This document shows positions 6,601 to 45,257 of a stretch of DNA of 64,000 bases, one piece after another. A program made the position numbers and the translations under genes. Each line of letters opens with the position of its first letter. Position 1 is the stretch's first letter. The notes below the pieces were generated by a model. That model was not told where the DNA came from. It did no database searches and saw nothing but the letters and a program-made list of their open reading frames with translations. The stretch spans positions 30,389,001 through 30,453,000 of the forward strand of contig CM049395.1 of assembly GCA_026929865.2 (NCBI GenBank), read 5' to 3'. This stretch comes from Hyperoplus lanceolatus. Lineage: Eukaryota > Chordata > Actinopteri > Uranoscopiformes > Ammodytidae.

Positions 6601-9011
6601 ATGGTGAGCTATCGGCTAGCGCCTCTCATTAGCCTGCTCGTCCACGAGAAGAGAGCGCTCCGCAGGTTGGCAGAAGGAGGACAGGGGAAACGCAGCAGCT
6701 AGGCCTACTGTCAGTTCCTGTAGGGGACCGGAGTCTTCACTCAGGTAAATGTACACAGCAAAACTTACCCACTTTTTTTTTTTATACATCAAATCCAACT
6801 GGCTGTGTATATGGAATGTCAAGCATTTCGGCTTAATCTACTGCGCCTACTATAGGCTACAGGACTCCTGTATATGTTGCCAAATAGGCCGCCTTATTAA
6901 ATGTCTTAAATCAATCTTTAAAAATTCTGAAAAAATTAAGACATTGAAATGTAATACATCAATTTGATTGGCAGCATCATCATCAGTTTCGCAATGCAGC
7001 ATGGCATGTCACGTACTTGTCTCGCACAGCCAGACCAAACTACAGCAATATGTAGTAGCCTAGTTGTCTTTTCATTTGTGTATTTTGAATGACCTGGAGG
7101 AAAAAATGTACATAGGCCTAAGTAAAAGATAAATCACTCTTATCCCGAGTGGCATTAAAATACGTTTTAAAAGTATTGAATCTAACTTTACCTTACGAAC
7201 CCTTAATGAAATTATAATTATAGGAGCATGGCCTACTCAGCCTGTTAAATATGCCAATAATTGTTATTATTAAATTATAACCTTAATCAACATAGGGAAA
7301 CCTTCTAAATCCCCAAATACACAACCAATACAAAATTACAAAAACATTATGTTTTTTGACTCGACGTCATTGGAAATGAGGGTCACCCCTCAATTGGTCT
7401 CTCGAGGATAAATAAAAGTTTAATGAAAAATGAAAATTATGTGACTAAAAATAAAGTACACTAACAAAGTAGCCTACATTTTCCTTTTGGTTTGACGTTA
7501 AAATGACAGTGAGAATTGTTTTAATTCACACCTTTACGTCGATGAGTAAGGAGGTTCGGTCTGGTCAAACGTCAGTTATTGGGTTACCCATAATTCAAAA
7601 TGTTTTAACAATTTTACTGAGTGACCTACATTCAGCTGTTGCAAAAAAAAAAACGTTCTAATGAAGGACTGACAACAAATAGAATAGTGGCGTCATCTTG
7701 TGGTGTAATGACGAAATGATAGGCAACTCTATTAGAATGTATAATGTAAAATAATCTGACGTTATACCAGGATAATATTTTTCTCTATAACTAAAATTAC
7801 GTTCAACAGGGGTTGTAAAACATTATGATCACAACATTTGGAAATTATTTTAAATGTTTCATTCCAGAATTTGGTATAAAGGTATAATAATAGCAGTAAC
7901 AAAGACATTTTAAGTTTGTTTTATATTGGTGGGGTATGTTGTAGGTACTTAAGATTTATGACCTCAGTATTATTAAAACCCTACTTCAATTGCGGTGTAT
8001 ATAATAAATGATGTAAAGTCTGACAATCTGTATCTCTGAATCAGACCAGTCTGATATTTTTATAATTGTATTTTCAGTAAGCACAAACAATACAACCTTG
8101 TCAACTTTTAGATTTGTCGGGCTGTAGAATGAGGGTTCACTTTTTAAATTAAAGCTCAGAAGTCACCCTGAGCTTTAAATATTTGTTTTAATATGTGTGG
8201 ATGTCTTTCTATTGCTCTGCAGTTATTGTTTTCTTCAGGACTGTAGGTTGTGAATGCAGGTTTTTTGGTGAGTCCAATCAGTAGGCTTTATGCTTGGTGA
8301 TTGGGGGTTAATACACTACTTTTGACCGTTTTAGTCTGAAATTAAGGTGCCTCCACGCTTTGTCAGGCAGCAAAATTTACGAATGTTGCAATGTTGTTGT
8401 TAGGGCTGGGTATCATTCAAATTTTAGTTTGATATCGATTCAGATTCCAATAACTTGACTTTGATACCGGCTCCTGAAAGATACTGTCTTCTATACCAAT
8501 TTTATGAAATCTGACTTCAGCAAGATGAAATTAGATATTTATGATTAAAAAAAACGTAATTTCTATTTTTTAGTTACTTGGCATTTTTACAAAATATCAA
8601 CAAATAAAACCTTAAATGAACTGAAATCGAAGTGACTGCCTTCAGATTACCTAAAATGCCCAATCTCCTAGCCACTGCAGCTCCACCAAGGTATAAAAGC
8701 CAAAAGGAACTAAATGTAAACAATACAATGCACATTGATGTGTACTGTGTAACCCATGTTGAAACCTCATGTATTTTTCCTGGACACATCAAGCATGCTG
8801 CTTGCTAATTGGCTCACTGACTGACAAGACATATTTCCCAACTTCGATACATAGTTGTTGTAAACTTTTACAATGTACCGCCATCCTTTAAATGCACATT
8901 TATGAAGTTCTGATTATCAGTTGTTTGAAACACAGCTAATGAATTATAATGAGGTTCAGTAAAAGGAAAGTACTACTAAATATATAAACCTACTTGCTGG
9001 ATTAGAAATGG

Positions 9012-9047
<36 letters not shown>

Positions 9048-9106
9048 AAGAAAGTAAGATGATTAAAGAGGTCAAGAGCAAACATATACAGTATATAGAA
9101 GAATGT
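3632..9106. other. upstream/5' region of the liprin-alpha gene and intergenic DNA
   Basis: No further coding exon seen. About 5700-6740 is relatively unique, has CpGs and lacks obvious transposon ends, so it is a candidate promoter and 5' UTR exon area for the minus-strand liprin gene (inference; no exon defined). A possible minus-strand donor is at about 5549 (CAAAG|GTGAGAT). The 8395-8560 stretch resembles a decayed fish MITE of the 'GGGCTGGGTATC' kind. The remainder to 9000 is AT-rich and featureless to me. Confidence 0.45.
9014..9045. repeat. (TG)n microsatellite
   Basis: About sixteen GT dinucleotides, just beyond the 3' end of the ZP gene. Confidence 0.9.
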
Positions 9107-9112
9107 TTTATT
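9107..9112 (-). promoter_or_regulatory. candidate poly(A) signal of ZP gene copy 1
   Basis: AATAAA on the minus strand (TTTATT on plus), about 260 bases past the stop codon at 9374. No other canonical signal was noted between them on that strand. Position fits; use is inferred. Confidence 0.45.
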
Positions 9113-9373
9113 GATCCATTAAGCAAGTGTATACGGTAATATTTGACATGACATGATGATGGTATATGAAATAGTAATTAATATGATTGTATAGGGCTAC
9201 ACCCACCAATAAACATACTTGTTTTCAATGATACAACAATGTAGTAAAACCCATTGTTAAGATACATGGGATCCCACAGCGGTAAACAGGACAGCACAGT
9301 TTAACATTCACCCAGCAGCTGCATTACTGTTGGATCATCCTTTCTAATAAATGTAAAATATTCTGTAAACATT

Positions 9374-9510
9374 TTAACTTTCAAATGTGGGCAGAGGTTG
9401 GTATTTCAGCCTGGACATTCTGGTTTTGTACATGGCCGCTGCACTGATCATGCCAACTGCTGCAAGAAGACATCCAGCGATGAATACCAGGTTCAGATTC
9501 AGGTTCATGA
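9374..9510 (-). CDS. ZP copy 1 exon 14: transmembrane helix, tail and stop
   Basis: 137 bases, acceptor TTTCCTTCAG. Encodes MNLNLNLVFIAGCLLAAVG, a hydrophobic helix, then YKTRMSRLKYQPLPTFES and TAA. This tail is a hallmark of the fish ZP family as I recall it. Confidence 0.87.
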
Positions 9511-12500
9511 CTGAAGGAAAGAAAAGATTAAATGTGAATTAAATATTGTCGTCCAAAGTCTATCTGGTGCTAAAACAAGGAAGATAAGAAAACACTCCTT
9601 GATTTCATACCTGGGCTTCCAGTCCTCTCTTCTGATCTCCTTAAGCGCAGGGGACCCTGGGAAACGAAGTGTGTTGCACTCTGAGTGACAATCTCTCTCT
9701 TGTGGTGGTGATGTTCGTGGCTGCCTGAGCTTGTGGAGTTGATACATCCCTGTGAGCACCTGGTGTTGGGTTTCCCTGCTTCACACATCAGGACTTCACA
9801 GCTAATGTACACCTGAATGCAACAGGACACGCTGTCATTAAATGAACAGAAATACATATGTCTCTTTTCGTGGGCAATAGCAGAGTTGTTGTCAGAGATC
9901 CCACATACAAGATCAAACCTCTGCTCCACATTGCTTCTTCATGCCAGTCAGTACTTTTCTATCTCATATTATTTTTTATATATTTTTTTGAAAGATTTTG
10001 GAGTGAGAGAGTTAAAACGGGGCAATGAATATTAGGGGAAGATATGCAGAGAACTGACCCGGGTCGGATTTTAACACAGGTCTGCTGCGAGGCCTGAGCC
10101 TCTAGGGGGGCGCTCTGACCAATGTGCCACGAGCGCTCCCCATCCTCCTTAATTTCATGTTTGTACATTTTTCGTTTGTCTTAGTTTTTCTTTGTTTATT
10201 CAAGATGTGATATATCAGTCATGATCATCATGCATGAAATTAACAATGTGAAACCGCAACAACTTCTCTATACTCGAGCTACAGGTCACAACCAGACAAA
10301 ATGTCAACATATATGTCAGATCATTCTAACACACCTGAGACAATTATCACATAAAAAGTTAGTTAAAGTTAGTGCTAAATGTGCACAGGAATTCAACCTT
10401 TTTCGAAATTATTTTATAACTATGCACCTGTGTACCCCAATAGGTGTGCCTTAGATAACACTTACTAAAACTCAGATAAAAAAAACTGGACCTATTAATG
10501 GTGGGATTTAGATAGATCACATTGACAGTTGCAGGTACTTTATAGTCTAACCACTTAGTCCATTCTATACCTGGTCATGCAAGCCAATGAATGCGAAGGC
10601 CTCCACACTGAACCTGAATTGTCTCTTGTGGGCAGGGGAATAGATTTCAACAGTCAAGTCCTTTGTACACCTAGTCGAAAAAAAAAGAAAAAAAAATCCT
10701 CTGTAACTTCATTCCTTACAGTTGATAACATAGGTAAGATGAGGTACAGGCCCAGGTGAAACTCAAAAACACATTAAATGTTCATCTATCCATACATTAT
10801 CTACAACTGGGCAAGTGGATATAAACATGGGGCAAAGATTGTGTTACAGACAATCATTCACACCTATGAGCAATGAGTCAGGCAAATTCAGTTGCAAACC
10901 TCTCATAAACAAGCAACGTGTGCTCTGTTGCCACTAGAGGGTGTACTCATTCCTACCCATTTTCAATGATGTAGTACTTTGGCCAGTAGTCTGGGTTGTC
11001 ATATGGTGCAGCTGTGCAGGACAGCACAAACAGCTCAGTGTTGTTGACTGAAGAGGTGGCCTCCATCTCCATGTAAATCCTGCTCCCTATGTCATACACT
11101 AGAGGGTAGTTATTGGGATCCATCATGGTTTGGAATTGGTTGTTGGGATAGAACTCAAACTGGTAGGTGAATGTGCCGAAGCCTCTCTCCCACACTGTGA
11201 CATTCTGCCTATGTGCTGTGAAGCCCAGTGTCACGTTCCCTCGTTTGGGGTACTGGCAGTAGAACTGCACTTCCAGCAGGTGTTTCCTGGTGATCAGGTC
11301 TTCGATGTTGTCGGCCGTGGTGATTACATTTTTGAAAATTAGGTTCTGATCATCTTCCTGCAGAATAAATAGTAAGGCAAGGCAAGTTTATTTATATACA
11401 GTTGTGTTCAAAATAATAGCATTGTGTTTAAAAAAGTGAGTAAAGATCAAAATCCTAATAATAGCTTTTATTTCCATATACGCAAATATATTGGGGACAT
11501 TGTACATTCAATTCCAACTCCAAATATGAAGAAACATTTGTCAAATGTTTCTTCATCTTTACAGAAAGTGAAGAAAAAGGAATATTAAACTGTTCAAAAA
11601 AATAGCAGTGTCTGCATTTTTCTTTACAACTCAAACATTTACTATATCAACTGAAAAATGCATGAAGATTTAGCTTTCCTATGAATCACTGAACTAATAT
11701 TTAGTTGTATAACCTCTGTTTCTGAGAACTGCTTCACATCTGTGTTGCAGGGAGCCGACCAACTTATGGCACCTGTGAACAGGTGTTTCAGCCCAGGACG
11801 ATTGGACAACATTCCATAATTCCTCTGCATTTCTTGGTTTTGCCTCAAAAACAGCATTTTTGATGTCACCACATAGGTTTTCTATTGGATTAAGGTCCAG
11901 GGATTGGGCTGGCCACTCCACAACGTTACTCTTGTTGGTCTGGAACCAAGATCTTGTTCGCTTACTGGTGTGTTTGGGGTCGTTGACTTGTTGGAACACC
12001 CATTTCAAGGGCATTTCCTCTTCAGCATAAGGCAACATGACCTCTTCAAGTATTTAAATGTATCCAAACTGATCCATGATCCATGCTATGCGATAAATAG
12101 ACCCGACACCATAGTATGAGAAACATCCCCATAACATGATGTCTGCGCCACCATGCTTCACTGTCTTCAAAGTGTACTGTGGCGTGAATAGGGGCCGCAG
12201 ACAGTTTGTCAGACGATCCCCAAACACTGAATTCAAGCCACGGTACACTTTGAAGACAGTGAAGCATGGTGGCACAGACATCATGTTATGGGGATCATTG
12301 TCATACTATGGTGTCGGGTCTATTTATCGCATACCATGGATCATGGATCAGTTTGGATACATTTAAATACTTGAAGAGGTCATGTTGCCTTATGCAGAAG
12401 AGGAAATGCCCTTGAAATGGGTGTTCCAACAAGTCAACGATCCCAAACACACCAGTAAGCGAACAAGATCTTGGTTCCAGACCAACAAGAGTAACGTTAT

Positions 12501-15500
12501 GGAGTGGCCAGCCCAATCCCTGGACCTTAATCCAATAGAAAACCTATGTGGTGACATCAAAAATGCTGTTTTTGAGGCAAAACCAAGAAATGCAGAGGAA
12601 TTGTGGAATGTTGTCCAATCGTCCTGGGCTGAAACACCTGTTCACAGGTGCCATAAGTTGGTCGGCTCCCTGTAACACAGATGTGAAGCAGTTCTCAGAA
12701 ACAGAGGTTATACAACTAAATATTAGTTCAGTGATTCATAGGAAAGCTAAATCTTCATGCATTTTTCAGTTGATACAGTAAATGTTTGAGTTGTAAAGAA
12801 AAATGCAGAAACTGCTATTTTTCTGAACAGTCTAATATTCCCTTTTCTTCACTTTCTGTAAAGATAAAGAAACATTTGACAAATGTTTCTTCATATTTGG
12901 AGTTGGAATAGAATGTGCAATGTCCCCAATGCATTTGCGTGTTTAGAAATACAAGCTATGGTAAGGATGTTGATCTTTACTCACTTTTTTAAACACACTG
13001 CTATTATTTTGAACACAACTGTAGCACAATTCAGACACAGTGCAATTCAAAGTGCAGGGTCATAAAATACAGTAGAATTTGACATTAGAAAGTGCATTTA
13101 AGAGACAATAGAAACAAAGGAACAAATGCTAGAAACATTTTATTTCATGTGCACTGTTCATGGTTTAAAGGAGCTGTGAGCAGAATGGTCAGTTAAGCTA
13201 ACTTCCTGTCAGTTACTGCAGTTAGCAGTCCCCTCGCTCGTCCCTACGTCACCACATTAATGCACTGCGGTCTTCGAGCAACAAGTTATCTAGCATCATC
13301 TCAGATCCATAAGTGTGATAAAACATGATAAAAACCATCAAAACAGACATTGGGAAGGATTTTTACCTGCTCCGCCATTGTAGGCGCATACACATTCACC
13401 CGTCTGTTGCTCTGCACGTGCACCGGCAGTGAGACGGGTGTCGGTTTGTAGCGTTCTCTGTTGTGATTGGATAAAATTCCGGGATACTACATAAAGTTTA
13501 ATTGCTGATTACATGCAGAGCAGTTGATTAAGAGATTGGCTTTATGAAACGCGCACATCGTGTAAGTGATAACTGTATGAATAAAGAACGATTTAACAGT
13601 TATATTAAAATAAATACACCGCTTACTTCACCTTTTAAAGACAGGTTTTCTTTATAGTAAAATATTCAGTCCTCATGATGTCAAAAAAAAGGAAAAGTAA
13701 CACTTTGTTACCTCGATCTGAGTGCCACAAGCGTTGAGTGGGATGACAGCGATGATGTGAGTGCTGTTGGAGTGTCTCTGGAGGCTGCAGGCGGTGTTGC
13801 TGGGTTCATTGAGCCGCAAATGATCCTCATGGAGTCCAGGAAATGAAGATTTCTCAACCTCCACTGTCATTGTGGACTCAGTGCAGATCACATTGGATTT
13901 AACTATGGCAAAAGATATGGCTATGTTAGATCATATGAGGCTTGGAAGTACTGCTTCATACAGCAGCAATTATTTTGTATATTATATATGTAATTATAAA
14001 TGTTTTATATTGATACATCTTGTATACTAATGTTTTGGTTGTTTGAGTTTGGTTTTTGGTATGTTTTGGACACTCGGTAAAGAGAGGGGTGGAGCTGTCC
14101 ACTGATCACCATCTGTTTGTAAAGGGCTTTGTACAGTAAGGATGGAACGCTGTTGAACTCCTGAATCTGACTAACACACCTTCTATGTTGGAGGCAGAGC
14201 TTGAGGCTAATGGGGGATCGTTGTCAATTTCCCTGGTGGAAGTCACTGAGGTAGTCATACTGTACAACTCCATTGTGACAAAGCCCCGGGGGTTAATGAG
14301 CAAACCACAGCATTTTACTTTTACTTGCTTAGCTGCAGCCAAAACAAATATTCTCAAATGTGCACCAGTCATGTAGTCAGTCTTTGGTACTTTAGGAGAG
14401 TATTCAGCATGTGATATTCAGTATTTTGTGAATTTATACACCATTAGAGTTGTAATTACATTACAAAATGTTGATATTTACATATTGATATATCTCACCT
14501 TGCTCCTTCCGTATCTCCACCAGAACACACCTCATCTCGGACTGATAGATGCCAGACCTGAAAGGCAGCCGTGAACTTTTTTTTAACACTGAGGCAATGA
14601 ATGCCTGTTACCATAAACCATAAGGATGGTTTGTCAGTTTTTAAAATCTCTCTCCTAATTATAGTGAAGTGGCAAAGGTTTAGGGTGTTAGGGTATTTTA
14701 ACAAGATGTTCCTGTCCCTTGGATTCATTGGCAGAGTCATCCTAGCAATCTTGAAAAAGGATCTAAAGACCTTAGTTTTAGTTTGAAAATGCAAATGCTA
14801 TTAGCTTTTGAATTTTCTAGCTAGTGATACACATTTGCTTCTGCCTTCATAACTTTGATAAATAATTGTATCTACTTTTGAATCTTGGCAGCTCAATAGG
14901 TTTCGTTATTTGCTAAACAGCATTATTCATTGTCATCTCTCAGCCTAGGGCAGTGCCCTTTACCTTGTTGCTGAGAGATATAGTTTTCAAAAGACTAAAC
15001 ACAGAAATGTTACTTACTGTGAAGATGGGTTGGAATGGTGATGGTGATGGTGATGGTGCTGTGTCGTTTGAACGCTTACAGCAGACCTGCAAAATGTGTA
15101 AAAAGTTAAATCATGGTTTTCCAATAAAATATTAATTCAGCCATGAAAGAAATGAACCAAAGGCTCACTCTGCCACTGATTCAACAGCAAAGCAGATCGC
15201 ATAATGTTCTCCAAGATCATCTGGAACAGGCGTCCACCGAATGACAAACTCCTCATGTGTTGTCCTGTGCTTGCTGATATTCAGTGGCCCACTCATGATC
15301 AGATCATGAATACTGTATGAAAAAAAAAAAAAAAGAAAACCAAGATTTCTCCGTTATAGTTTTTTTCTTGCTTGCAGAAATGATAAGAATGTTTTGCACT
15401 GAACACTGATCACGTTGGTTCTCACGTTGCGTATGCAGCTTTTGCTTTGACTCTGATCTCCACTTCTTTGTTGACCTCTGCTTGGATGCGTGCTCCATTT

Positions 15501-18500
15501 TCAGGGGTTGGTTGCACAAACTTTGGCAAGTACTGTCCTTCCTGACACGAAGGAGCCGGTGGGTCCACTAGATTAAAAAAATAAATAAAATACAAATAAA
15601 AGGATGAATTGAAGGCAAGACAAGGCAGTCTTAAACATTGATTTAAAAAAAACTATAATGTGTTCTTTCATGCTTGTGCTGCAACAGGTTTTTCAATGTG
15701 AATCAGTGTGGATTGGCCCAGTTTAAAATGTGATATGAAAATGATGTGGACAGGTAAAATCGAATTTACCAAGTAAGGAGAATTGCAAAGGGAGTACACT
15801 GAGAGGAGTGGTGGTCCATGAAGCAGCTGTGGTGGTTGTTGGAGTAGCTTTGGTGGTTCTCGGGGCAGCTGTGAACTGTCCATGCCAATACCACCACCAT
15901 GGGGTTGATGGAGCAGATGTGGTGGATGTCTGGGCAGCTGTGGTGGTTGTCGGGTCTGTTGTGGATTGTCTTTGCCAATACCACCACCATGGGGTTGTGG
16001 GTGTTGGTTCAGTTGTGGAAGGTCCATGCCAATACCACCGCCATGGGGTTGTTGGAGCAGATGTGGTGGATGTCTGGGCAGCTGTGGTGGTTGTCGGGTC
16101 TGTTGTGGATTGTCTTTGCCAATACCACCACCATGGGGTTGTCGGGGCAGCTGTAGTGGTTGTCGGGGCAACTGTGGATTGTCTTTGCCAATACCATCGC
16201 CATGGGGTTGTGGGTACGGTTGTGGATGTTGGTTCAGTTGTGGATTGTCCATGCCAATACCACCACCATGGGGTTGTCGGGGCAGCTGTTGTGGTTGTCG
16301 GAACAGCTGTGGCTCGTCCATGCCAATACCACCAATACCATGGGATTGTGGGTACGCTTGTGGATGGTGCTATTGTTGTGGATGTTCCGTACAATTGCGA
16401 CCACCACCATGGTAAAGCAGATGGGTTGACAACTTGTCTTTTTCTCCTTGCATTCAATGGAGCCCTGTAAGACCGGGATCCGTCTGTGTAGGCCAGAGTG
16501 ATGTGCCCTTGCGGGAAGTCCTCCACCACCATCTCAAATGCATTAACTCGGGGGTCGGCACTGGTGTTGTGGTAGTGTAATGTGCAAGAGTCCTAACAAT
16601 GTGAACATTAAGCAGTTTAGTGAGGCAAAGCACCAGTCTATTGTACAATGCATTAGGAAATTGACTCTTAAACTCACCTGATCCAAGTGAAAGCCTGAAG
16701 GTGGGTTGCACGAGCTGCAGTCTATATTTCTACTATTTCCATATCTACATTGAACTTTGTCCCCATCAGGATCAAATGACATCAGCTTGTATGTCCGTGG
16801 GCAGTTCTGAGGCACCCTTGAATAGACATACACACCACTAGTTAGTATTTTAGTGGAGTTTATTACATGTCATATGCAAAATCACAAATGTTTACTTTAA
16901 ATCAAAAGTACGTTTATTTATGTATTTATTTTTGTTAATCCTTTGCAACCGAAAGGATATTTCAAATCTCCTGGCTTTTAAACTTTTTGAGGTAATCCTT
17001 TTTTTCCCAAAGCCTAAATGAACACCTTTATTATTCAAATAGGACATTACTTTTGATTTCATTTTCCAAATTATTCTGATATTCATCTGTTTATGTTTGC
17101 AGACATTTTGTAGGAACCAATCCCAGTAAAAAAAACTTGCAAAATGTTTACTCACAACATCTATCAAGCTCCAATGGTGACTACATGTATTACTAATGGG
17201 GGCATCAAAGTTGGACATTTTCCATAGGATGCTTAGACTAAATTATCAATATTTAGTCTACCCATTTCATGCTCAGTGTAGGGTACTTACCGTAGGAAAG
17301 GTAGAATTGCAATATCTGGTGATCTGTTGGGTTGTCCAGTGTCAGATCTTGTTCCCAAATCAAGAGAAGTGCGTAGTCTCCATGAACTAACCCCGTTACG
17401 TGTTCGGATCCAACAACAGCTCGCTGCACTGATATGTGTGAAAACACCTCATAAATACAAAGAACAGCAGCAAAAATACTTATTACAATTTCAGTAAACA
17501 AAAAGCTCACCTCATTTCAAAAGGTTTGTCGCTCGGGACTTTGAGAGTACGGACTGTTTCAGTTTCACACCATTGCCTGTTATATTTCGGTGCATTGGTG
17601 CTCCTGTCAAGCGTACCTCTCTCATTTCTGCTGGTATATCCACAGTTGCCACTGTAACAATTCCAGTAGTGAGAGTACTGACACCCATCAAATGTTGCCC
17701 TGTCGCGAATGTCCACCTGTGGAAGAAAATAACCAAAGTAGTGCACTTAGTTAAGAAATGTTTTGTATACTACATTTCTGTATATTTTGTGAACACAACA
17801 TTTATATCACTCGTACTGTAATAATACTATTAATTGTAACAACGGTGTTGTTTTTATTATTTGATAAACTACAACAATAAATGTAGTTAAAGGTCTTATC
17901 TTGGTTGAAAAAGGCATAGCATTTTTTTTAAATCATGAAGCCAATGACTTTGCAATATGTCAAGGATTTCACTCCTTGAATCATAGGAGGAACAAGGCAA
18001 AGAAAATTAAAAATTAAAACTAAAATAATGTTAAAATAATACAGTTTAACCAGCACAGCCTAAATTACATTCAAAAGATCCTCCAGACTAATCATTATTT
18101 TTAAGGCAAATAATAAACCAAAGAAAGGTACAAGGTGTTACAACCAAATATAATTTAGAGATTACGCAAGTGTATCTTAATGTCACTTGTGTGTCTTGAA
18201 TGAATGATTAATGATCATTTATACTCTCAGGGTACACCAGGGAAGCCACCGACAGTTAAGATAAACTGCAAGACTGAAAGACAGATTCAAAAGTAAAGGA
18301 AATGTGAGCGTTTCTATAAAGCAACCCATACAATTATACGTCTTTCCTTTATTCATTTTTACTCGTGACTATATCTGGGTATAAAGTTTTTATATGTTGC
18401 TACAAAAATACGAAGTATGATGACTGCTGTGGTGACATGCTGCCTGCAAACTTATCTTTTTCTTTTTACAATTTCAGAAAGATTGTTATTAAAAATGCCA

Positions 18501-21500
18501 TTGCAGAGTAAGAATAATACATTTGATACAGCTGTTTTCGATGTGCTCAGACGCCTAAAATATTATTATGAGATTAATATAAGTACAGGATGTGCTTCCT
18601 GTTTTCCTACTGTGTAGACGCTTTTCTGTTTGCTCTCTCCTCCTCTTGCACTTTTTGCTTACATTCTTCTTTTTCGTCAACATAAATTTAGCAGCAGCTC
18701 CTGGATACATACAAATCAATGGGACTGTCATTAATTTTATTGTTTAATAGATACTACAGGTATTTTTAGAAACTTTTACGACCTCCTCAACAGAATGTGA
18801 AAAGGCCTACAAACAGGGTAGGCCTGTGGTGACTGTAAGCGAGGCGCTAAGCTAAAGCTAATTAGCAGCAAGATGCCTCCCTTATCAAACGAGGAGTACC
18901 AAATACTCCTACAGAGGATTACAGCACTGGAAACAAAAGTGAATCGAATGGAAGTGAATGTGGAAGTGAATGGACTATGTGGGAACGACACCACTCTATC
19001 AGTGACTGAAAACAGTGGACAAGATCGAGCTAACGCACAGCTAACTAGCACCTGCAAGGCTATGAAGAAACAGAAGGACTGTGTTCAAGGCAGTGATAAC
19101 CCTCCCTGGAATCGTCTTGGTGCAAGGCCAAAGAGATTGGAAAAGGGAGGACGGATAACCGGCAGGGCCAAGCGCCATGAGATGATTGATCTGGACGGCT
19201 GGCCTGCATTACCACCTAGGCACAATGCCTCCTCAACCCCCGTGCCCCGGAGGCCGCAGCAATGGATAGCTGCCAATGGGAGACGTAACAACAAACCTCC
19301 CCAGCAAACAAGTGTGCTAGTGTCAAATAGGTTCACCCCACTGTTACAAGTCCCTGGATTTCCCTCTGATGACAACACAGCAGCCTCACACCGCAAGGTA
19401 AGGCCCGAAAGCCAAGAGCCACAGAGAGAGCTAACAACCAGGCTAACCAAGCTAACAACCGGGCCTGAAAATTTGATTGTTGGAGACCTTTCTGTTAGAG
19501 ATATGAAAAGCATGTTTAGTGCTGATACCAAAGTACTCTGCTATCCAAATGATATGGTATCTGACTTAGAAAAAAGAATCCTGGACATTGCAGCTGCTCA
19601 CACAACTGTAAAGAACATCATTCTGCACATCGGGGCAAATGATGTTGTAAAGCAGGAGTCTGAAATGTTGAAACAGGACTTTAAAGATCTCTTGAACACG
19701 GTCAGCTCACTGAAAGCTAAGGTGTATATCAGTGGTCCTCTGCCACCAATCAGAAGAGGACCTGAGAAATTCACCAGATTGCTGGCACTGAGCATGTGGC
19801 TTTCAGCTGCGTGCCCCGACCACTCAGTGCATTTTATTGACAATTTTAACACTTTCTGGAACCGCAGGCAGTTTTTTAAGACAGATGGGCTCTGCCTAAA
19901 TAAGACAGGATTAAAAGTATTCATATCAAATATTTTCTACGTCCTGCGCCACCCATCTGTTCGTGCCAAGGACAAGTTACTGGAGAAAGCCAAAAAGATA
20001 CTGGAGAAAGCCCAAACACAGCATTGCAGCAGCCCCGAAGGACAACTGCCGGCCCCAGATGACAGCTCAGACCATGAGAGATATCAGGGCAGAGAGGAGG
20101 AGGCTCCACCTATCCCCGTCTCCCCTGGACCCCGCAGGTCATCACCAAGCCGACCTCTCTCTCCTCCTTTCTCTCCTACAACCACCCTTTCTTCATCCTC
20201 TCCTGAGCTGGAGTTCATGGAAATCGTATGTACTCCCCGTCCTCAACGTCAATCCACTCCCCCTCAACTTGTCAATCTTAGCCACAGCGCCCGGCTCGTC
20301 ACCCCTCCACGCACACCCCCTCTGATCCCACCATTCAATCTTAGCCACAGCGCCCGGCTCGTCATCCCTCCATGCACACCCCCTCTGATACGTCATTATC
20401 ATCAGGCTTGGGAGACTTTGAACGGCCGTGTGTCTGATTCGAGCTTTGTAGATAAACTTGCCTTGCCTTGCCTTAATGATGTCAGCACTTGATATGTGCC
20501 GGGCCGCGGCTACACAGGTATCACTTTCGACTCACAGGCGGGCCGCGGCTACACAGGTATCACTTTCGACTCACAGGATAAGACGGGGCCCTGTTTCTCA
20601 AAGTGTATCTTAAGTAACAGGAAACTCTTAAATCCTGTAAATGTATCAAATCTGATAAGCATTCCTCTTCAGCCACAGTGTGCTGAAATAAATCGGGCTG
20701 ACAATGCTTCGAACACACTAAATTTAGCTTTATTAAACATCAGATCCTTGGCAGGTAAAACATTTTTAATTAATGATCTTATTACTAGGCACAATCTTAA
20801 TGTTATGTTTTTAACTGAAACTTGGTTAGACCAAGATAACAGCTCAGCTGTTCTCATAGAGTCCGCCCCCCCCAAATTACAATTTTGTGAGTGAATCCAG
20901 AGTGCATAAAAAAGGAGGAGGGGTTGCTATTTTGTTTAAAGAATCTCTACAATGCAAAAAGATGTCTTATGGAAATTTTGATTCATTTGAGTATGTGGCT
21001 CTCCAGTTAAATTCAGCCTCTAGAGCTATTTTCATCAATATCTACCGGCCACCACAATAAAATACAAGCTTTTTTGATGACCTTTCTGAGCTGCTGTCTG
21101 TAATCTGTACTGAGTTTGACTGTGTATTAATTGTCGGAGATTTCAATATTCATACTGACAAACCAGAGGACAGATGTGCGAAAGAACTGTGCTGTGTCCT
21201 TGACAACTTTGGACTAAATCAGCATGTTGACAAACCAACTCATAACAAAGGGCACACGCTGGACCTTATCATTTCCAGAGGAACAAACATTTCAGACTTA
21301 ACAGTGGCAGATATAGGTCCCCTCTCAGACCATTCCTGTTTATTTTTTGAGAGTAAAATGTCTGTGCACACAATTGATCAATCAAAAGTAATCAAAAAAC
21401 GGTATATTACAGAAAATACCAGTGAAACATTCATTCAAGCATTTTCTTCAGTACCACCCTTCCCCTGTAACTCAGTTAAGGAGCTCTTAGACAACTTTAA

Positions 21501-24500
21501 CGGCAAACTTATAAGTATTATAGATGCTATAGCGCCCACTAAGATGAAGGTTGTCTCGGGTAAGAAAAGATCTCCTTGGAGAAATGCCCCGCAGGTCAGA
21601 ATAGAAAGAAGAGAGTACCGTAAAGCAGAACGCAGGTGGCGAAAAACAAATCTCCAGGTTCATTATGACATCTTCAAAGAGAAACTGTGCACGTTTAACT
21701 CAGAACTGAGAAATGCAAGGCAGTCTTTCTTTTCTGACATAATCACCAAAAACAACAACAATGCACGTGCCCTGTTTGCTACTGTCGACAGATTAACAAA
21801 CCCTCCTGTGTCAGTAGCGTCTGTATATCTCTCCACGAGAGCCTGCAATGAATTTGCCTCCTTCTTTACTGAAAAAATTCACAAAATTAGACAAGCTGTC
21901 ACTGCATCAATACCAAGTTCAACATATGTGTTCCCTCTTAAAATCAATTCAAATGCAATGACAGAATGTTATCTTATAAACCACGAAAATCTGGTGGACA
22001 TTATACAACACCTGAACTCCTCATCCTGCTGCCTTGACATTCTGCCCACAGGCTTCTTTAAAACTGTTTTTAGCTGTATGGCCTCAGATGTTCTACAAAT
22101 TGTCAACATGTCCCTTCAGACAGGTCCCACAGGCCCTGAAAACAGCAGTCATCAAGCCACTCCTAAAAAAGAACAATCTAGATACATCACTCATGAAAAA
22201 TTATAGGCCAATATCTAACCTACCATTTTTAAGTAAAATCATTGAAAAAGCTGTTTATCAACAGCTAAATAACTACTTAGCAAAGAACAACTGCTTTGAT
22301 GTTTTCCATTCAGGATTTCGACAACACCACAGCACTGAGACTGCTCTGGTTAAAGTCCTGAATGACATCCATTTTAACACAGACAGTGGCAAAAGTTCTG
22401 TCTTAGTTTTACTGGATCTCAGTGCCGCTTTTGACACAGTTGACCACAGCATATTACTAGATCGACTAGCAAACTGGGTTGGACTTTCTGGAACTGTACT
22501 AAGCTGGTTTGAATCCTACTTAAAGGATAAAGACTACTATGTGTCAATAGGCAATTTCACATCTGAGCGGACAAATATTGAATGCGGAGTCCCCCAAGGT
22601 TCCATTCTTGGGCCTCTTCTGTTTAACATCTACATGCTCCCACTAGCTCAGATTATGAATAAGAACAAATTATGCTACCATAATTATGCAGACGACACAC
22701 AAATTTACATAACCATATCACCAGGAGACTACAGTCCGATACAGGCACTGAGTAAGTGCATTGAACAAATCAATGATTGGATGTGCCAAAATTTCCTTCA
22801 ATTAAACAACGACAAAACTGAAGTAATTGTCTTTGGTGCCAAAGATGAACAATTAAAAGTCAGCGCACAGCTTACATCCGTTATGTTAGAAACCACACCC
22901 CAAGCCAGAAATCTTGGTGTTATCGTAGACTCCGACTTGAATTTCAAGAAACACATTAAATCAATTAATAAATCAGCCTACTACCACCTGAAAAACATAT
23001 CAAGAATTAAAGGGCTTATGTCTCAGCAAGATTTAGAAAAACTTATCCATGCATTTATCTTTAGTAGACTTGACTACTGTAACAGTGTCCTTGCTGGCCT
23101 TCCAAAAAAATCTATCAGACAGCTTCAGCTAATTCAGAACGCTGCTGCTCGAGTCCTCACTAGGACCAAAAAAGTGGATCACATTACCCCAGTTCTGAGG
23201 TCTTTACACTGGCTTCCTCTCACTCAAAGAATTGATTTCAAAATACTGATGTTGGTTTATAAAGCACTAAATGGTTTAGGGCCAAAATACATTACTGATA
23301 TGCTGATACGTTATGAACCGTCCAGAGCCCTTAGGTCGTCTGGGACAGGTCTACTTACAGTCCCTAGAGTTAGGACTAAACAAGGAGAAGCAGCTTTTAG
23401 TTATTATGCACCAAAAATCTGGAACAAACTCCCAGAAAACTTGAGGTCTGCTGCAACTCTCAGTTCTTTTAAATCGAGTCTGAAGACTTTTTTGTTTCCA
23501 TTTTAACCTGCAATTTTTATTTTATTCGCTTCTTTTATCTGCTTTTAAATGTTTTATAATGTGTTTCCATTTTAACCTGCAATTTTTATTTTTTATTTGC
23601 TTCTTTTATTCGCTTTTAAATGTTTTATAATGTGTTTTATGTATTCTATTCTTGCCCCTGTAAAGCACTTTGAGTGGCCTTGTGTCTTAATTGTGCTATA
23701 TAAATAAACTTGCCTTGCCTTGCCTTGCCTACATAGTACCTAGGGGGCAAAACCCCTTTTTTTTTAAAAAACAGACACTGTTTTTTCCAAGGGAATGTCT
23801 AGCCGTTTCCTAAAATACCAGCTGCAGACTCCAAAAGGACACATTTGGTCCATGGCACATGAAATGTAACTGTGTAAAAAAAATATTTTCAATGGGTTAT
23901 TGATCAAATTTGAACTGTGATTAGGAAAGGCTTCAGGCAGTTGGACACTTGTTTTGTTTTCAAAATTTAAAAACAAATTGACTTTGTTTTCTTCCAACAT
24001 CTAGATTTTGGGGCTTTGCAGATATGCAAATGTACGCATCATTAGTAAGATATTGATGATTTTTCATACTTATTTAAACATTTTGGAAAATACTGTAATA
24101 CAAAAAGTGTTTGTTTCAATGTCAGTAATCAACTGGCAAAGTTTCATAATGATATCTATAATTTCAAAAAAAATCCCTATTAGCCCATCCCCATTCACCC
24201 CCATTCACCCCCATTCGCTTAAACAGTGGTTCTGATATGCTCTATGTCGGCCCGCTGTAGCTTTCCAGCAGCTTGTTGACCAGGTTGTCCACCTAGGTTG
24301 TGATCGTGGAAGGTCCTAGATGTCATTTTTGGTGAACAACCAGCTTTTACAACGCTCCATGTCCATAAAATCACTTTGCCCCCTGGGTAATAGGTTGAAA
24401 ATAAAAGAAGAAAAAAAGGATTCCAAGATAAAAAAAACATTTAATAAGTGAAGTACAGATATATAAAATGCAATTGAAATTAACGTTGTATCAGAACTTA

Positions 24501-28486: not shown

Positions 28487-29873
28487 GGGGCCTCATTTAT
28501 AAAGCTTTGCGTGGGATTCACGGGGAAGCTAGCGTACGGAAGAAATGTAGGATGTACGTGCGAACAAAAAAATTCTGATTTATAAAACAGTGCGCACTCA
28601 CGTCCTACGCCTGTTTCCCTTTATAAATCACAATCAACTCTAAATGTGGCGCAGCCTTTGCGGGCTTCACGTAACGCCCATATTTACCCATACATAGTCA
28701 TTGACACGCCCGAATTAATATAATTTACTGAGTGCATGAAGGCGGCCGGTAGTGGCAATCGCCGACTGAAAGGGAAATGCAAAAATAGACTCCACACGGT
28801 GTGGATCACTGCGGTCACGCCGAAGTAGGCCTACCCGTTGGAGAAGTGGCGACCAGGGAAAATTTAGTTTGGTGGCACAGTGTGAGGGTAAAGGCGTCAG
28901 AGAGTGCAGCCTGTGGCGATCTCTGTGAACGCTGTGGTCGAAATAAAAATAAGCAATCCGACATAAAAGTGGAGGCAAAAAAGTGCATATCCTCACACAG
29001 CAGTGTTTGTGCCACGAGCGGGGGACACTGAGACCCCCCATGAGATACTATTCGTAGAATTCATCCCGGTGCAGTGACGGGCGGCGGAGGGTTAGCCAAA
29101 TAATAAACTTCACAGTCCCTTTCAAAACACAGTTACGACGTGCTTAAACACAAAGAAAAACACATAGATAAAACGGACTAAAAACCGCGAAAAATTAGCA
29201 CAGTAGGCTATGTGATGTACAGTAGGCTTATGATTAGTGTATGAAACTGTGCACTCCTGTCTGCCTGACTGAGGCATCGAGAACAGCGTCAGTGTAAAGG
29301 TAATAGGTTGTATTCCACCTCAATATTATCAGAATGAATCCAATAACATGCAGAGCTTATTCAAACGTTTTGGTAACACAAGGGTACTTACCCTTTTTAA
29401 AAGGTAAATTTACCTTTTAAAAAGGGTAACTACTCTTTTTTTGTGTAGCCTACCTTATTGTAAAGTGTCACCAACGTTTTTTTCATATCTCCGTTTGTAG
29501 GCTATTTAAGATCCTAATTCGTTTTGTTTTTTGTTGGTATCACTCCATGGAAAAATCCGTGGAGGTATTTTTTTAGGCTATTAGTTGTAAGAATGTCTTC
29601 ATCCGTTTTGCAAAGGAACTCCCTATATGATAGACCTACATAATAATAGGCTTATAATAGGCCTATATCTGGATTCATTTTACACAAACACATTCGTTCT
29701 CGCACTTCATACGTTTCTCCTTTCTCCACTTTCTGTGCATACGCATGGGTCAGAGTTTGCGTGGAGGACCGCACATCTTCCCGTCAAATTTGCTTTTCTA
29801 TAAATCCCATTGTTTGCGTAGAAATTCCGTGCGCCCTCTTCTGGGAGTACGCCACGTTTATAAATGAGGCCCC
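28487..29873. mobile_element. 1.4-kb TIR element with GGGGCCTCATTTATAAA ends
   Basis: GGGGCCTCATTTATAAA at the left and its inverse at the right end. Flanking duplication is unclear (CTG on one side, ATG on the other), so superfamily is open; the ends recall teleost PIF/Harbinger-type MITEs. Short frames within (for example 28715-29041 minus) have no recognisable domain. Contains the perfect palindrome at 29388. Confidence 0.75.
29388..29429. repeat. perfect 42-bp palindrome
   Basis: Begins TTACCCTTTTTAAAAGG and reads identically on the other strand, with its axis at AAATTT and no mismatch or spacer. Confidence 0.95.
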
Positions 29874-33520: not shown

Positions 33521-34211
33521 AACAAACCAATAAACATGTATTTTTTTCATAAATCATACAGCAATACAAAATAGTAGAAGCAGTTGTACAGCCATATGAT
33601 CCCACAGTGGTAAACTGGGCGGCCCAGTAGCCACTATTTGATCCCTTCATTGTTGTTTAGTATTAAACTTAGAAAGACAGACATAAACTCTTTAAGCATG
33701 TACAAATATATCTCTAGACATTTTTAAAATATGTCATTATAATATATTCTGCAAACATTGCTGTTTTAACTTTCAAATGTTGGCAGAGGTTGGTATTTCA
33801 GCCTGGACATTTTGGTTTTGTACATGGCCACTGCACTGATCATGCCAACTGCTGCAAGAAGACATCCAGCGATGAATACCAGGTTCAGATTCAGGTTCAT
33901 GACTGAAGAAAAGGAAAGATCAAATGTGAATTAAAACTTGTCCAAAGTCTATCTGGTCCTCAAACATGAAAGATGTGCTGTTAACCCTAATCCTTCCACT
34001 GATTTTAAATACATTGACTACAGACAGGGTCACTAAAGAAAAAGTACTGGAAGAAACCACCATCAAAAAAAATAATACATTATTTTTCTTAAATAATATA
34101 ATGATACATTATTTTTCTTCAACGAACAATATTAGTTATGTTAATGCCATCTGAGAGAAAAACAACAGATAATATGCTAGATGTGAAAACTTTGAAAAAT
34201 GTTCATACCTG

Positions 34212-35065
34212 GGGCCTATCCGAAAACTTTTTTTTGCATAGGAAATTTCCTTTCCTATCGAGATGACCCGGAAGTGCTCGGCAGATAGGTGATCCGAATA
34301 ACCAAAATGCTTAGGAAAGGCATAGGAAAGGAGCCTTGATTCATCCTTTAACCCTCCTTTAGCATAGGTTACTCCTGGCTAACCTATGCTAAAGGAAAGG
34401 AGATAGTGGTATCCCATAATCCTTTACGGCGGCAAGATTTAAAGCAACAGGCCACCGCCGGAGTTTACCGACTCTACACGAATACGAACGAGAGGCAAAA
34501 CAGAAGAGAGGAGAGGAGACGAGAGGAAGATTTAACTCAGCTAAAACAAAATACCCCCCCCCATTAAGATAATAAAGAACTCATAAAAGACCAACATCAT
34601 AATTTAGTTATTTTCGTAGCACATCATTTACACCATAAGAAAATAAAATACCAACTTCACATTTAATGAAGTTACTGGGGGCAGTTCATTTCAACATCAA
34701 CATAGGCTAAGTGTAGCCTCTTTTTATTCCACATGTGAATTGGGATATATGGGAGTGATTCTCACTCTGTTGGCGACAACCTGATTAAAATCAATATGAA
34801 AAGAACGCATGGATCAAACGAGCGCTTGTTGTAGTCAATTTTCGGAGAATAGTGTAGTTTCACGCGACTCACGTCAGCAATACTCGCCGTCGCGCAATGA
34901 CGTCGGTTAGGAAAGGTGGAGTCGAATTCATTTGAAACAACGCTGTCCTTTCCTATGTTCGATAGGAAGCAGCTTTCATCTCTCCTTAACCCCGATGACG
35001 TTTTGGGGTTAAGGCATAGGAAAGGAGGCTTATAGGTAAGGAGATTGGACTTTTCGGATAGGCCC
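34212..35065. mobile_element. Harbinger-like MITE at the exon 13 donor of ZP copy 2
   Basis: Inverted ends GGGCCTATCCGAAAA and TTTTCGGATAGGCCC with CTG duplicated at 34209-34211 and 35066-35068. Copy 1 has the uninterrupted ATACCTGGGCTTCC. A CWG duplication within ACCWGG matches the known preference of zebrafish Harbinger3 elements. Repeated CATAGGAAAGGAG motifs lie near both ends. No transposase. Confidence 0.85.
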
Positions 35066-36587
35066 CTGGGCTTCCAGTCCTCTCTTCTGATCTCCTTAAG
35101 CGCAGGGGACCCTGGGAAACGAAGTGTGTTGCACTCTGAGCGATAATCTCTCTCTTGTGGTGGTGATGCTGGTGGCTGCCTGAGCTTGTGGAGTTGATAC
35201 ATCCCTGTGAGCACCTGGTGTTGGGTTTCCCTGCTTCACACATCAGGACTTCACAGCTAATGTACACCTGAATGCAACAGGACACGCTGTCATTATATGA
35301 ACAGAAATACATACGTATGTCTCTTTTAGTGGACAATAGCAGAGTTGTTGTCAGATCCCACATACAAGATCAAACCTCTGCTCCACTTTGCTTCTTCATG
35401 CCAGTCTGTACTGTTCTATCTCATCCTCCTCAATTTCATGTTTGTAAATTTGTTATCCGACTGTTATTAAAGAAACGACATACCAGTCAAGATCATCAGG
35501 CATCAACTTAACAATGCAAATTCCCAACAACATCCCTTTAGTGGAGCTACAGGTTTAAAAAAACAATGAAAATCACCCACTTCGATGTATTTTTTTTCTT
35601 TTGTATTCTAGAATTCTTAATTAAATTAAATTACGTTGATAATTTTAGGGATGTTTTTTTTAATTATTGATTTGATCAGTGTGTCAGACTTGGTTGTCCT
35701 TTTTGATTAGTTGCTACCTATTTATTATTTCATGCTGTGTGTTTGTCTGATTCTATGTTTTTTATTAATGTACAATATACAGTATGTTTTCATAATTTGT
35801 CATTGCACTATGATCTTTTCTAATACCCCGTGTAGTATGCAGATGTTTTTTTTCATTTAGTCACCTAATAAAGTAGTTCTAACAGAAATTAAGCCTTTTT
35901 CCACTTGGTTTCATATCTATGCACTTGTCTTCTAGCCTGGCACCAGCTGCCTACGTACTTCTGCTTAATTTTCATTTCCCTTCAGTAGTCAGTCTGGGCC
36001 TGCGGAATATTCACGGGTTTTCTCCGTCCAGATTGTTCACGTTCCAATCAGTGAACAGAGGGAGTGGCTAAGAACAATGACATGCACCAGTTTCAGTTAT
36101 AGTCAGAAGCTGGCTCATGAAATACGTCACAACCAAACGTTATGATATTGGTTGGCAGATCCAGAGTGGCACTGGGCAGATCCAATAGTTTCAAACTTCA
36201 ACAGACACCCGCCTTCAAGTGAGGTAACGTTTGTCAATTGAGCAATTCCAGACATGTACAAATTAAATGAACTACGATGGTCCGGTAGTACCAGGCTGCC
36301 TGTCTTCACCAGCAGGTTTGTGTCTTCGATAAGAGTTACTAAAACTCAGTTTTAAAAAACTGGAGCTATTATTAGTAGGTTTGAGAGTTAAGACATTAAC
36401 AGGCACTTTAAAGTCTAATTACAGTACATTCCATACCTGGTGATGCAAGCCAATGAACGTGAAGGCCGCCACACTGAACCTGAATTGTCTCTTGTGGGCA
36501 GGGGAATAGATTTCTACAGTTGAATCCTTTACACACCTTGTCCAAAAAAGAAAGGGAAAAAAAGATAAGAAATAATTATACTGTTAA

Positions 36588-37745
36588 AGCTGCAGTTGAG
36601 AGTTTTTTTACTGTAATATTTGGCAAAACTGTCATAATATCCATTCAGCTATATGTAGGTGAAGTGGTCTGAAAATATTTTTTTATCACTTTGCTCTCCC
36701 CTGCCTTTGTGTGCTGCTCCCCAAAATTGCCACCGCTCATGTTAATTTTGACCAATCAGAGCGAGGTCAGATTCTCCGTTCTTATTGGCTGTGGGACCTT
36801 GGCAACGACGTTGATGCGTCAGTTGCGTGAGCGTTCACGACCCTAGCAGTCTGACACTAGCCTACTGTTTGGTACTAGGCTACTACGGCGGACAGCGAGT
36901 AGCAATGTCTTCACAAACGAACCTTCAATTTACCATTCCCAGGATACCAACAACTAACACCGCTAAGACAGCAAAAAAACGAGGAAAGACGAATGTTGAA
37001 AAGTTAACTGCTGAAAGGGAGACGGAGAGAGCTCGAAAAAAAGTACACCGGCCATGTCTTCTTGCCCTATCACATCAAGACCTCTCCGACCGCGACCTCG
37101 TCCCCTTCCTCTGCCCCTAGGCTGCCTGCCGCTAGCAGCAGGACGTCCGCTGGCCCTATAAAGCCCTCGTCCTGTGCTCAGTGTTGCCAACTCAAAGCGA
37201 TTTTGTCGCTATATTTAGTGACTTTTCAGCCCCCCTGGCGACTTTTTTTTCAAAACAGCGACAAGCGACAAATCTATCTTTTTTTTCTGGTGTTATTGGT
37301 GACTTTTTTCGCCAAAGCAAGTATCACCTCTTCTCAACGAGCAGCGGGAGCACTGACATGCAGCCCGCTCCTCGCGCGGCAGCCCCTCCCAGCTGCGGTC
37401 AGAGCAGGAGCATAGATAGTAGGAGATACACACACACCTCTCCGCTCTGTTACAATTAGTTTGCTATCTTGCCTGGCTGTTACAGCTACTTTTGTTAGGT
37501 CTACCAGAACACTTACAATGATTTTAAGCTAACATACATGGTATGTCTGTGATTAAAATGTATGCTCAATATGTACGTATGTAGTTATCATTACTAATGT
37601 TTAATCACCTCGGAATCGGACATGGTGTTTGTCTCCTGTCAATGTAACTCAATTCACATGAACGCGCATAGCTGTCGTTCGGAGGGAGGAGCTACAGCAG
37701 GTAGAGCGTTGGGAAAACAGCCGTTGGAAACTCTCAACTGCAGCT
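36588..37745. mobile_element. Kolobok-like TIR element in intron 11 of ZP copy 2
   Basis: Ends AGCTGCAGTTGAGAGTTT and its inverse, flanked by TTAA at 36584-36587 and 37746-37749. Holds a basic open frame (36905-37118 plus, with KTAKKRGKTNVEKLTAERE) that resembles the N-termini of proteins in fish TTAA elements; too short to be sure. Copy 1 has CTGTAACTTCATTCC at the matching place. Confidence 0.75.
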
Positions 37746-38053
37746 TTAATTCATTCCTGACAATGTATAGGAAAGTTAAGATTACGTATGAGGTGCAATA
37801 CATTAACACATTTTATTTCCATCTATCCATAACTTATGACAGTTAATCACATTTAGCTGAAACTTTTATAATTAATATAATTATAAGAAGGGACCCATCC
37901 GCAATTCTAAAGTTGCGAACAGGCTTACGAAAAGTGACTTTCACTAAGTGCATTCAACCATGAAGGTACAAACACAGCAAGAGAGAACAGCAAGAATCAC
38001 TCAAGCACATTAGCTCCAGATAAGCAAGCCAAACTTCAAAGTGCCACATCTAA

Positions 38054-39141
38054 GGGGCACTTTACACGACAACACGAAACGGTGCAAACGCGGAAAAATT
38101 CACGCGGTTGCACTATATCATTTACAGGAAAACAGCAAACGCAGGCATGAAACCGCAGGTTTTTGAGATCACCTCCGAGGGAGGATTTTTTGGAAAACTT
38201 AACGGTTTTGGTTTCCTGTAAACACCGAAACCATTTCCCCTGATAACGCTGACGTCACGGCTCCACCCTCACACATGCGCAGTCTATAACATTTGCTGTC
38301 AAAATCATGGACCTATAAAGAAAATACCCACAACACAAGCGAGTTATAAAGTTAGAAGACAACAACATGAACGGTGTCTCCACGGCACCATCACTGTGAT
38401 CAGCGGAGAGTGGCGTGCAGGGCTAAAATATAGCCTAACACTCGCCAATTTAGTCTAAGCGATTAGTAAATTATTGAGACCACCGGCCACTTTGTCTGGG
38501 GAAAGATTTGTGCTCTGCCGGTTTTTCTAGCCAAATAAACGTGTGTAGCTTCTATGCCAGGGCAGGGACACGGCTCTCTCTACATTAAAAAACACTATCC
38601 ATAGTTCAGCGCGCAGCGGTTAAGTTACTGTTCAACAAAAGGAGCATTAAAGCTACGGCTTCACAGTAAAAGCATTTCACTGGCTAAACATTAATAGCAT
38701 TTCACTGGACACACGTGAGTTGACTTTTATTTTGAAGTACGCCTAACAGGAAGGTATCCGCTCACGAAGCCCCTTCACTATCAGCATGTCTTCTGTTTTT
38801 ACAAGTTCAATGCGGTGAAATAAGAGGACAGAAAGCTTGTCTTTTACAATACTTGTTACCCCAAGCTTACACCAACCGCTTTATGAACGTTAGTGGCATT
38901 AATGTTCGGTTACAGTAAGGTTTTAAACATCAAATTGTACCGGAAGAGCTATCTAATAGGCTGTGTCACCGCTGACTATTGGCTTGGCATGGCTGCTACA
39001 CTGCTACTACAGCGATTTCGGCCCGTTTCCTCTGAAAACATGTGTACGAGTGAAGATGTCAGATAAATTGTGTCTGAACGGGGTTTTTTTTTTAAACCAA
39101 AAACTGGAAAACTGTCACGTTTTCACAGTGTAAAGTGCCCC
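38054..39141. mobile_element. PIF/Harbinger-like TIR element in intron 11 of ZP copy 2
   Basis: Ends GGGGCACTTTACAC and GTGTAAAGTGCCCC with TAA on both sides (38051-38053, 39142-39144), a TWA-type duplication. About 1.09 kb, non-coding. Absent from the shorter intron of copy 1. Confidence 0.72.
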
Positions 39142-39744
39142 TAAGGGCCGCATGTAGGGGCAACTAGTGCACTTTAAAAAAAGCTTGTGTTACAGACAAT
39201 CATTCACACCTATGAGCAATGCAGAGTCAGGCAATTCAGTTACAAACCTATCATTAACCAGCAAACAATCTTTACAAATACTTTGTTATGTGCTCTGTTG
39301 CCACTAGAGAGTGTACTCATTCCTACCCATTTTCAATGATGTAGTACTTTGGCCAGTAGTCTGGGTTGTCATATGGTGCAGCTGTGCAGGACAGCACAAA
39401 CAGCTCGGTATTGTTGACTGAAGAGGTGGCCTCCATCTCCATGTAAATCCTGCTCCCTATGTTATACACTAGAGGGTAGTTATTGGGATCCATCATGGTT
39501 TGGAATTGGTTGTTGGGATAGAACTCAAACTGGTAGGTGAATGTGCCGAAGCCTCTCTCCCACACTGTGACATTCTGCCTATGTGCTGTGAAGCCCAGTG
39601 TCACGTTCCCTCGTTTGGGGTAGTGGCAGTAGAACTGCATTTCCAGGAGGTGTTTCCTGGTGATCAGGTCTTCAATGTTGGCGATCGTGGTGATTACATT
39701 TTTGAAAATTAGGTTCTGATCATCTTCCTGCAGAATAAATAGTG

Positions 39745-45140: not shown

Positions 45141-45257
45141 TCCTTTATCTACAGAGTCGAGTACCTTGCGAGGAGGAGAAGGACGTTCCATAAACCCATC
45201 ATCGACATGATTACTGTCAAGTTAAATTACTTGTCTATTCATGAATGTGTACTGCAA

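Follow-up and report, generated by a model that had tools for sequence, protein, structure and literature searches.

Is the long palindrome at positions 11397–13023 of a 64,000-nt stretch of the Hyperoplus lanceolatus genome (assembly GCA_026929865.2, contig CM049395.1, positions 30,389,001 to 30,453,000 of the forward strand; this whole stretch is called the window below) a local accident or a mobile element in its own right, and how could a Tc1 transposon come to consist of two facing copies of one of its halves? The original prediction, made from the letters, had described two 779-base arms around a 65-base spacer, each arm encoding the catalytic half of a Tc1 transposase. Our analysis showed that the palindrome belongs to a foldback-like, non-autonomous Tc1 family, the main form of which probably descends from one founder that was made by a template switch during gap repair, spread in trans and later recombined between its arms. 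The element is laid out as follows.

11397–11398, no strand: left TA target site duplication; the paralogous empty site has one TA.
11399–12189, minus strand: left arm, with the terminal inverted repeat (TIR) outermost and the 3' part of a Tc1 transposase gene; inverted match to 12231–13021, DDE_3 on 11694–12053.
11399–11611, no strand: left TIR region, with two direct repeats at 11405–11425 and 11591–11611 (repeat listing).
12190–12230, plus strand: 41-nt asymmetric centre, read as transposase gene running on from the right arm; 12202–12351 aligns to Sleeping Beauty 5cr4_A 56–105, and the centre is matched in the relative L081.
12231–13021, plus strand: right arm, with the 3' part of a Tc1 transposase gene and the TIR; inverted match to the left arm, DDE_3 and SB100X alignment.
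12433–12435, plus strand (mirror at 11985–11987): GTC (Val) in place of a Sleeping Beauty Asp, from the SB100X alignment and readings across copies.
12809–13021, no strand: right TIR region, laid out as the left (repeat listing).
13022–13023, no strand: right TA target site duplication; the paralogous empty site has one TA.

A gap-free inverted alignment pairs 11397–12189 with 12231–13023 (793 nt, TA flanks included) at 762 of 793 positions (96%), leaving 31 differences, of which 17 are transitions and 14 transversions. The predicted 779-base arms lie within this alignment and hold 29 of the 31 differences. The two inverted arms are real. An asymmetric centre exists as well, but the arm homology extends 12 nt further inward than had been thought, which leaves a centre of 41 nt and not 65, and this centre reads as transposase gene sequence (see below). 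With arms of 791 nt, the inverted repeats cover nearly the whole element, as they do in foldback elements. The two ends carry the TIR CAGTTGTGTTCAAAATAATAGCA (a search tolerating up to 3 mismatches gave these 2 matches, and none in 100 shuffled sequences), the outermost 23 nt of the two ends are identical, and TA stands on either side, confirming that two Tc1 3' halves face each other between intact ends. Each arm carries the TIR motif (19 to 21 nt) in two direct copies about 190 nt apart, the layout that in many vertebrate Tc1 elements goes by the name of IR/DR (inverted repeat/direct repeat), and in this the ends are those of a Tc1/mariner element. Within the window copy the arm differences are spread unevenly, 18 in the 213 positions of the TIR and 13 in the 578 internal ones, with 12 of them falling within 60 nt at the end (none of 20,000 shuffles was as dense). 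A long hairpin (−1396.9 kcal/mol) is the predicted fold of an intron transcript carrying the palindrome.

Read from the centre outward, the right arm is the 3' half of a Tc1 transposase: 12202–12351 and 12406–12663 align to Sleeping Beauty SB100X (E 3.1e-22), and DDE_3 matches have E-values of 3.3e-06 (27.5 bits) and 4.9e-06 (26.9 bits, 11694–12053), both just under the gathering score of 28.6. By these two matches the element is related to the DD34E transposases, and 34 residues separate the second and third catalytic positions when counted on the sequence. At the same time, this is not the complete transposase with three catalytic acids of an autonomous Tc1: the part with the first Asp lies outside the element, and the second Asp of the catalytic half, which aligns with a Sleeping Beauty Asp taken to be catalytic, is replaced by Val in either arm. 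Both arms also contain an in-frame TAA (12364–12366, mirror 12054–12056), and it is this stop codon, not a frameshift, that had been read as a shared frame break.

A search of the genome from which the window comes (806.7 Mb in 527 contigs) with the 65-bp centre gave 40 scored matches of 115 candidates, the window copy included, which are 95–100% identical over 63–65 of 65 nt. The genome search that the original prediction had proposed is thus positive and points to an established family rather than a local rearrangement. We found no point in support of a one-off rearrangement or an assembly artefact, and an explanation of this kind is scarcely credible: the same centre at 39 other scored places refutes a one-off event, and with 31 differences between the arms, and the same structure at other loci, an artefact is unlikely. 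The 39 other scored copies were excised for comparison. Twenty of them align end to end, and 18 of these 20 have TA on both sides (15 exactly, 3 when one mutated terminal base is allowed), while L013 and L042 lack one TA; the alignment of the remaining 19 misses at least one end, with L030, L044 and L045 matching fewer than 350 positions. At least 1500 of 1623 positions are kept in 8 of the 39. Because the same junction stands at many loci with TA duplications of its own, the palindrome itself is, to judge from its copies, transposed as a unit, in agreement with the prediction that it could be mobilised as a foldback element. The predicted instability was borne out in part: 11 of the 20 end-to-end copies miss at least 150 nt of one arm, but none of the 20 misses that much of both (counts given without a chance test).

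The Tc1/mariner type of target duplication is seen not only at these 18 copies but also at an empty site in the window, where a paralogous intron joins the element's flanks, themselves part of a region duplicated in the window, across one TA.

39571–39841, no strand: paralogous empty site (flank, single TA, flank); by alignment the flanks agree at 94.4% over 198 and 86.7% over 75 positions.

Since the paralogous intron is an empty site with one TA, the element most likely entered a TA after the regional duplication. Searches further afield returned no match for TIR relatives in viral contigs, for the transposase part in viral contigs or in a collection of genome contigs, for the whole element among phages and plasmids, for the TIR letters in paper texts, or for Rfam families over 9000–15000. 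The sequence collections cover viruses, prokaryotes and plasmids, and the genome from which the window comes may be missing from them.

The loss of the catalytic Asp is a property of the family. Among the 39 other copies, all 25 readable right arms have Val (GTC), as do 23 of the 24 left arms that could be read; the remaining one has ATC (Ile). LCGD, which had been taken as a sign that one arm was copied from the other, occurs together with this Val and with Leu in nearly all readable arms of these copies and cannot mark a local event. A genome-wide scan for the Asp version of the motif, with one mismatch allowed (which misses copies with more changes), gave 96 places, two of them in the window copy and none exact; 92 have Val and 4 have Asp plus another change. 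As the second Asp is replaced by Val in nearly every readable arm, the family would be unable to make a working transposase, and its transposase would have to come from elsewhere, in trans. A further subgroup (L078, L079 and L080) has Asp-Asn-Asn in place of Val-Asn-Asp. The shared TAA was considered as a mark of the founder and rejected, since only 8 of 26 right arms have it, and 9 of 26 left arms, with AGA in 14 and 15 respectively.

What the centre is made of is seen in L081, a degenerate one-armed relative (87% alike) in which the centre is matched and the sequence upstream of it continues as transposase, with a WTDE motif at the place expected for the first Asp; the 5' TIR was not recognised in this copy. 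Because L081 continues as transposase upstream of the centre, the centre is transposase gene rather than filler, and the left arm of the main form ends 41 nt before the right arm does and is joined to it directly. When the 41-residue part of L081 upstream of the centre was used in a genome search, matches beyond L081 reached at most 62% identity, the second-best E-value belonging to a match at 58%, and no second copy of the parental type was present among the matches scored (150 of 5139 candidates). Two further loci were tried as the parent and rejected: L053 has Val, one arm and no transposase upstream, as judged by eye in three forward frames, and L078 has one arm in which only DDE_3 was found.

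The orientation of the 41-nt centre (scores of 37–41 one way and 10–14 the other) allowed the ends of different copies to be compared. Of two end types, a and b, the 18 of 40 copies that could be typed at both ends have a/b in 11, b/a in 5, a/a in 1 and b/b in 1 (Fisher p 0.004). Most of the typable copies thus have unlike ends, and both orientations of the centre relative to them occur. The types were set on sites 38, 43, 44 and 79, at which the two ends agree less often than expected (2, 3, 3 and 4 matches against 7.5, 8.5, 8.5 and 9.2 expected, in 19–20 copies). Fold-back priming, in which an excised or broken 3' half snapped back, copied itself and was re-inserted with two identical right ends, would yield the observed short asymmetric centre and identical interiors, but it expects like ends, and with one a and one b end in 16 of 18 typable copies we regard it as very improbable. 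The distribution is most simply explained by a founder whose ends were unlike, one of type a and the other of type b, followed by inversion of the centre through crossover between the arms; the presence of type a on either side of the asymmetric centre fits such a crossover.

The interiors behave differently from the ends. The majority base differs between left and right at 4 of 213 TIR positions and at 2 of 578 inner ones; inside the arms (positions 214–719) divergence is 3.8% within a copy and 4.8% between copies, and in the TIR it is 6.8% within a copy compared with 5.8% (same arm) and 6.1% (across arms) between copies. At six polymorphic sites outside the TIR the arms agree 82 times of 113 when 64.6 are expected, although singly only sites 259 and 665 reach p<0.05. 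TIR sites 62, 112, 120, 138 and 156 show no significant excess of agreement, with 120 and 156 leaning towards a deficit, while at site 58 the ends agree in 18 of 18 copies; a subgroup has G at both ends, as would be expected from a conversion patch. The proposal that one arm was copied from the other therefore fits the interior, but the ends were apparently unlike from early on. The two orientations of the centre could also stem from an exchange of ends between different copies instead of crossover within one copy: the a/a and b/b copies and L079 do show mixed ancestry, yet random exchange would produce a/a and b/b at chance frequency, and the 2 found among 18 (p 0.004) make this unlikely. If crossover within a copy is the cause, it is possible, as a tentative extension, that the family exists as two isomers, with crossover between a copy's own arms inverting the centre again and again with respect to the unlike ends and conversion patches keeping the arms alike; the same exchanges could mend arms that have suffered losses, and so a long palindrome might persist in an animal genome.

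We infer the following origin for the main form. In an ordinary Tc1, an inverted duplicate of the 3' half would have taken the place of the 5' half, while the two unlike ends were kept. The likeliest route would be gap repair after excision, in which synthesis from the left broken end first copied the left TIR, changed template within it to the homologous right TIR and ran inward through the transposase 3' half; its product would then have been joined to the right side, where copying had gone on for 41 nt more. Without a working catalytic site, the product would then have spread by cut-and-paste using transposase supplied in trans; recombination between the arms would later have inverted the centre relative to the ends, leaving conversion patches, and in many copies a piece of one arm or of the centre would afterwards have been deleted.

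Several observations weigh against this origin. The intact parent was not found, and treating a and b as the two TIRs of the parent depends on L081, the only recognised end of which is a-like at 4 of 6 sites. Mobilisation is deduced here from the sequences of the copies. The types a and b were defined from the same data in which they are counted, and 22 of 40 copies, among them the window copy with its mixed right end, had at least one end that defied typing. The cluster of end differences in the window copy was rejected as sole proof of unlike ends, as most of these differences are private to this copy and no more than 3 or 4 of the 12 lie at family sites. Taking together all 16 sites that vary in both arms, left and right match about as often as expected (161 times of 314, with 165.5 expected); the shortage of matches at sites 38, 43, 44 and 79 is opposed by the excess at 58 and inside the arms, and sites 43 and 44 are adjacent. 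The arms of L079 are mixed, with Val in the left and Asp in the right, which hints that exchange with other elements may also occur. Moreover, a search with the transposase part gave 30 loci (2 of the window's own, 10 overlapping the 39 copies and 18 new), and among the 18 new loci, where 8 have the main centre, another 8 have other centres and 2 have no facing arm. Four of the other centres (L061, L062, L065 and L072) keep the left-arm edge of the founder, as later deletion would leave them; L050, L051, L068 and L071 keep neither founder edge. These centres, two of which are shared by pairs of loci (L050/L051 and L061/L062), would be expected if palindromes had been born several times in the family with no single founder. 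Much of the variety of centres can be explained by deletion around the centre, though separate births are also possible; with the main centre at 40 scored places at 95–100% identity, and with such deletions giving the same picture, several births in place of one founder seem rather improbable to us.

A second palindrome in the window bears on the same question.

57706–59227, no strand: second palindromic Tc1-like element, of a different family, with other TIRs and TA flanks (inverted-repeat, domain and genome searches).

Weak matches to HTH_SB (E 0.0012) and HTH_Tnp_Tc3_2 (E 0.0026), both below the curated cut-offs, lie in its left arm, and because of these and the match between the arms at the DNA level the element seems to be built of 5' halves; no HTH match was found on the right-arm strand, though the right arm matches the left as DNA. 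Its 241-bp centre gave 40 full-length scored matches of 527 candidates, the window copy included, and of 12 other copies that were excised 11 have both ends, with TA on both sides in 10 of the 11. Over the outer 740 nt the arms of this family show 43 near-fixed differences, at a density of 3 to 9 per 100 nt, with 23 more in the unmatched centre. In the first 130 nt of each end in 11 copies, the left and right states are mostly constant and no copy is swapped (exceptions are L083 and L087, which deviate at a single left site, and L093, in which several sites have the right-arm state on both sides). Its founder either aged before spreading or was made from two different copies. The near-fixed arm differences suit nested insertion, in which a second copy of a family inserts inversely into a first, better than those of the first family do. 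For the first family nested insertion, with later loss of the stretch between like-oriented TIRs and of both 5' halves, would likewise yield a palindrome with unlike ends, but it needs more events and near-identical source copies (the interior majority differs at 2 of 578 positions), and we give it a small share of the probability there. Compared with the first family, for which we prefer the template switch in one founder, the second keeps at least 93% of its length more often (10 of 12 against 7 of 39 copies, Fisher p 7e-5), only a lead since the 10 of 12 is a manual entry and the query lengths differed.

Long palindromes are thought to be unstable; in this one genome, however, two unrelated Tc1 families turned palindromic and multiplied. 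In Drosophila Foldback (FB) elements the arms consist of short tandem units. The first family resembles FB in consisting almost entirely of inverted repeats, and differs in that its arms are transposase gene and TIR, the direct repeats across 10500–14000 in a general repeat listing being two-copy only. With Sleeping Beauty and other vertebrate Tc1 elements it shares the aligned 3' half, the TA target, the IR/DR-like ends and the 34-residue spacing, but it is a palindrome lacking the N-terminal part, with Val for the second Asp. Abortive gap repair mostly leaves internal deletions, whereas here one half is duplicated in inverted orientation. Non-autonomous elements derived from Ds, mariner and Bari have been explained by errors in repair once an element has excised (PMC4877112). 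In the literature compared, the nearest parallel is Galileo, a P-superfamily element of Drosophila: in it the 3' end of the transposase open reading frame has been recruited into both TIRs, over 69 bp in one copy and more than 500 bp in copy 147, with faulty gap repair, template switching and ectopic recombination discussed as causes of TIR extension (PMC4168063). The likeness stops at the superfamily and the target site, since Galileo has a P-superfamily transposase and 7–8 bp duplications and our family a Tc1 transposase and TA; in addition, the copied part here is nearly the whole element and the centre occurs in both orientations. Recruitment of the transposase gene into the TIRs would thus extend to Tc1. 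At the level of titles and abstract openings we found neither a palindromic Tc1 family, which may be named in Repbase or Dfam, outside that search, nor a description of unlike ends with an invertible centre. Such ends and such a centre are natural markers of arm recombination, with which birth, inversion and loss of one arm can be counted from sequence.

The first element lies in a predicted phase-0 intron (11358–13711) of a ZP-domain gene, 41 nt from the 3' splice site. Of the exons on either side, one has the start of a ZP-N domain and the other has ZP-C, along with the end of ZP-N, matched weakly (E 0.085); both are open, the intactness of the gene having been checked for these two exons. 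The ZP-domain region is duplicated and diverged, with 9372–18587 and 33764–53401 about 82–96% identical in pieces. Six comparisons between its two copies gave mismatches of 2.4, 3.4, 3.9, 4.9, 12.1 and 12.5%, the last two values belonging to a stretch that aligned poorly and to another of 32 nt. The insertion target is a dispersed repeat, AAGGCAAGTTTATTTATATAGCACAATTC, found at four places in the window (11374–11398 with 13022–13091; 39746–39841; 23583–23721; 20415–20469), and a degenerate repeated array is present in both duplication copies (15818–16412 and 42889–43101). Further imperfect inverted repeats (66–78%) are at 44824–45459 and 49848–50003, and a short palindrome at 29375–29442 (68 nt) is 88% self-complementary.

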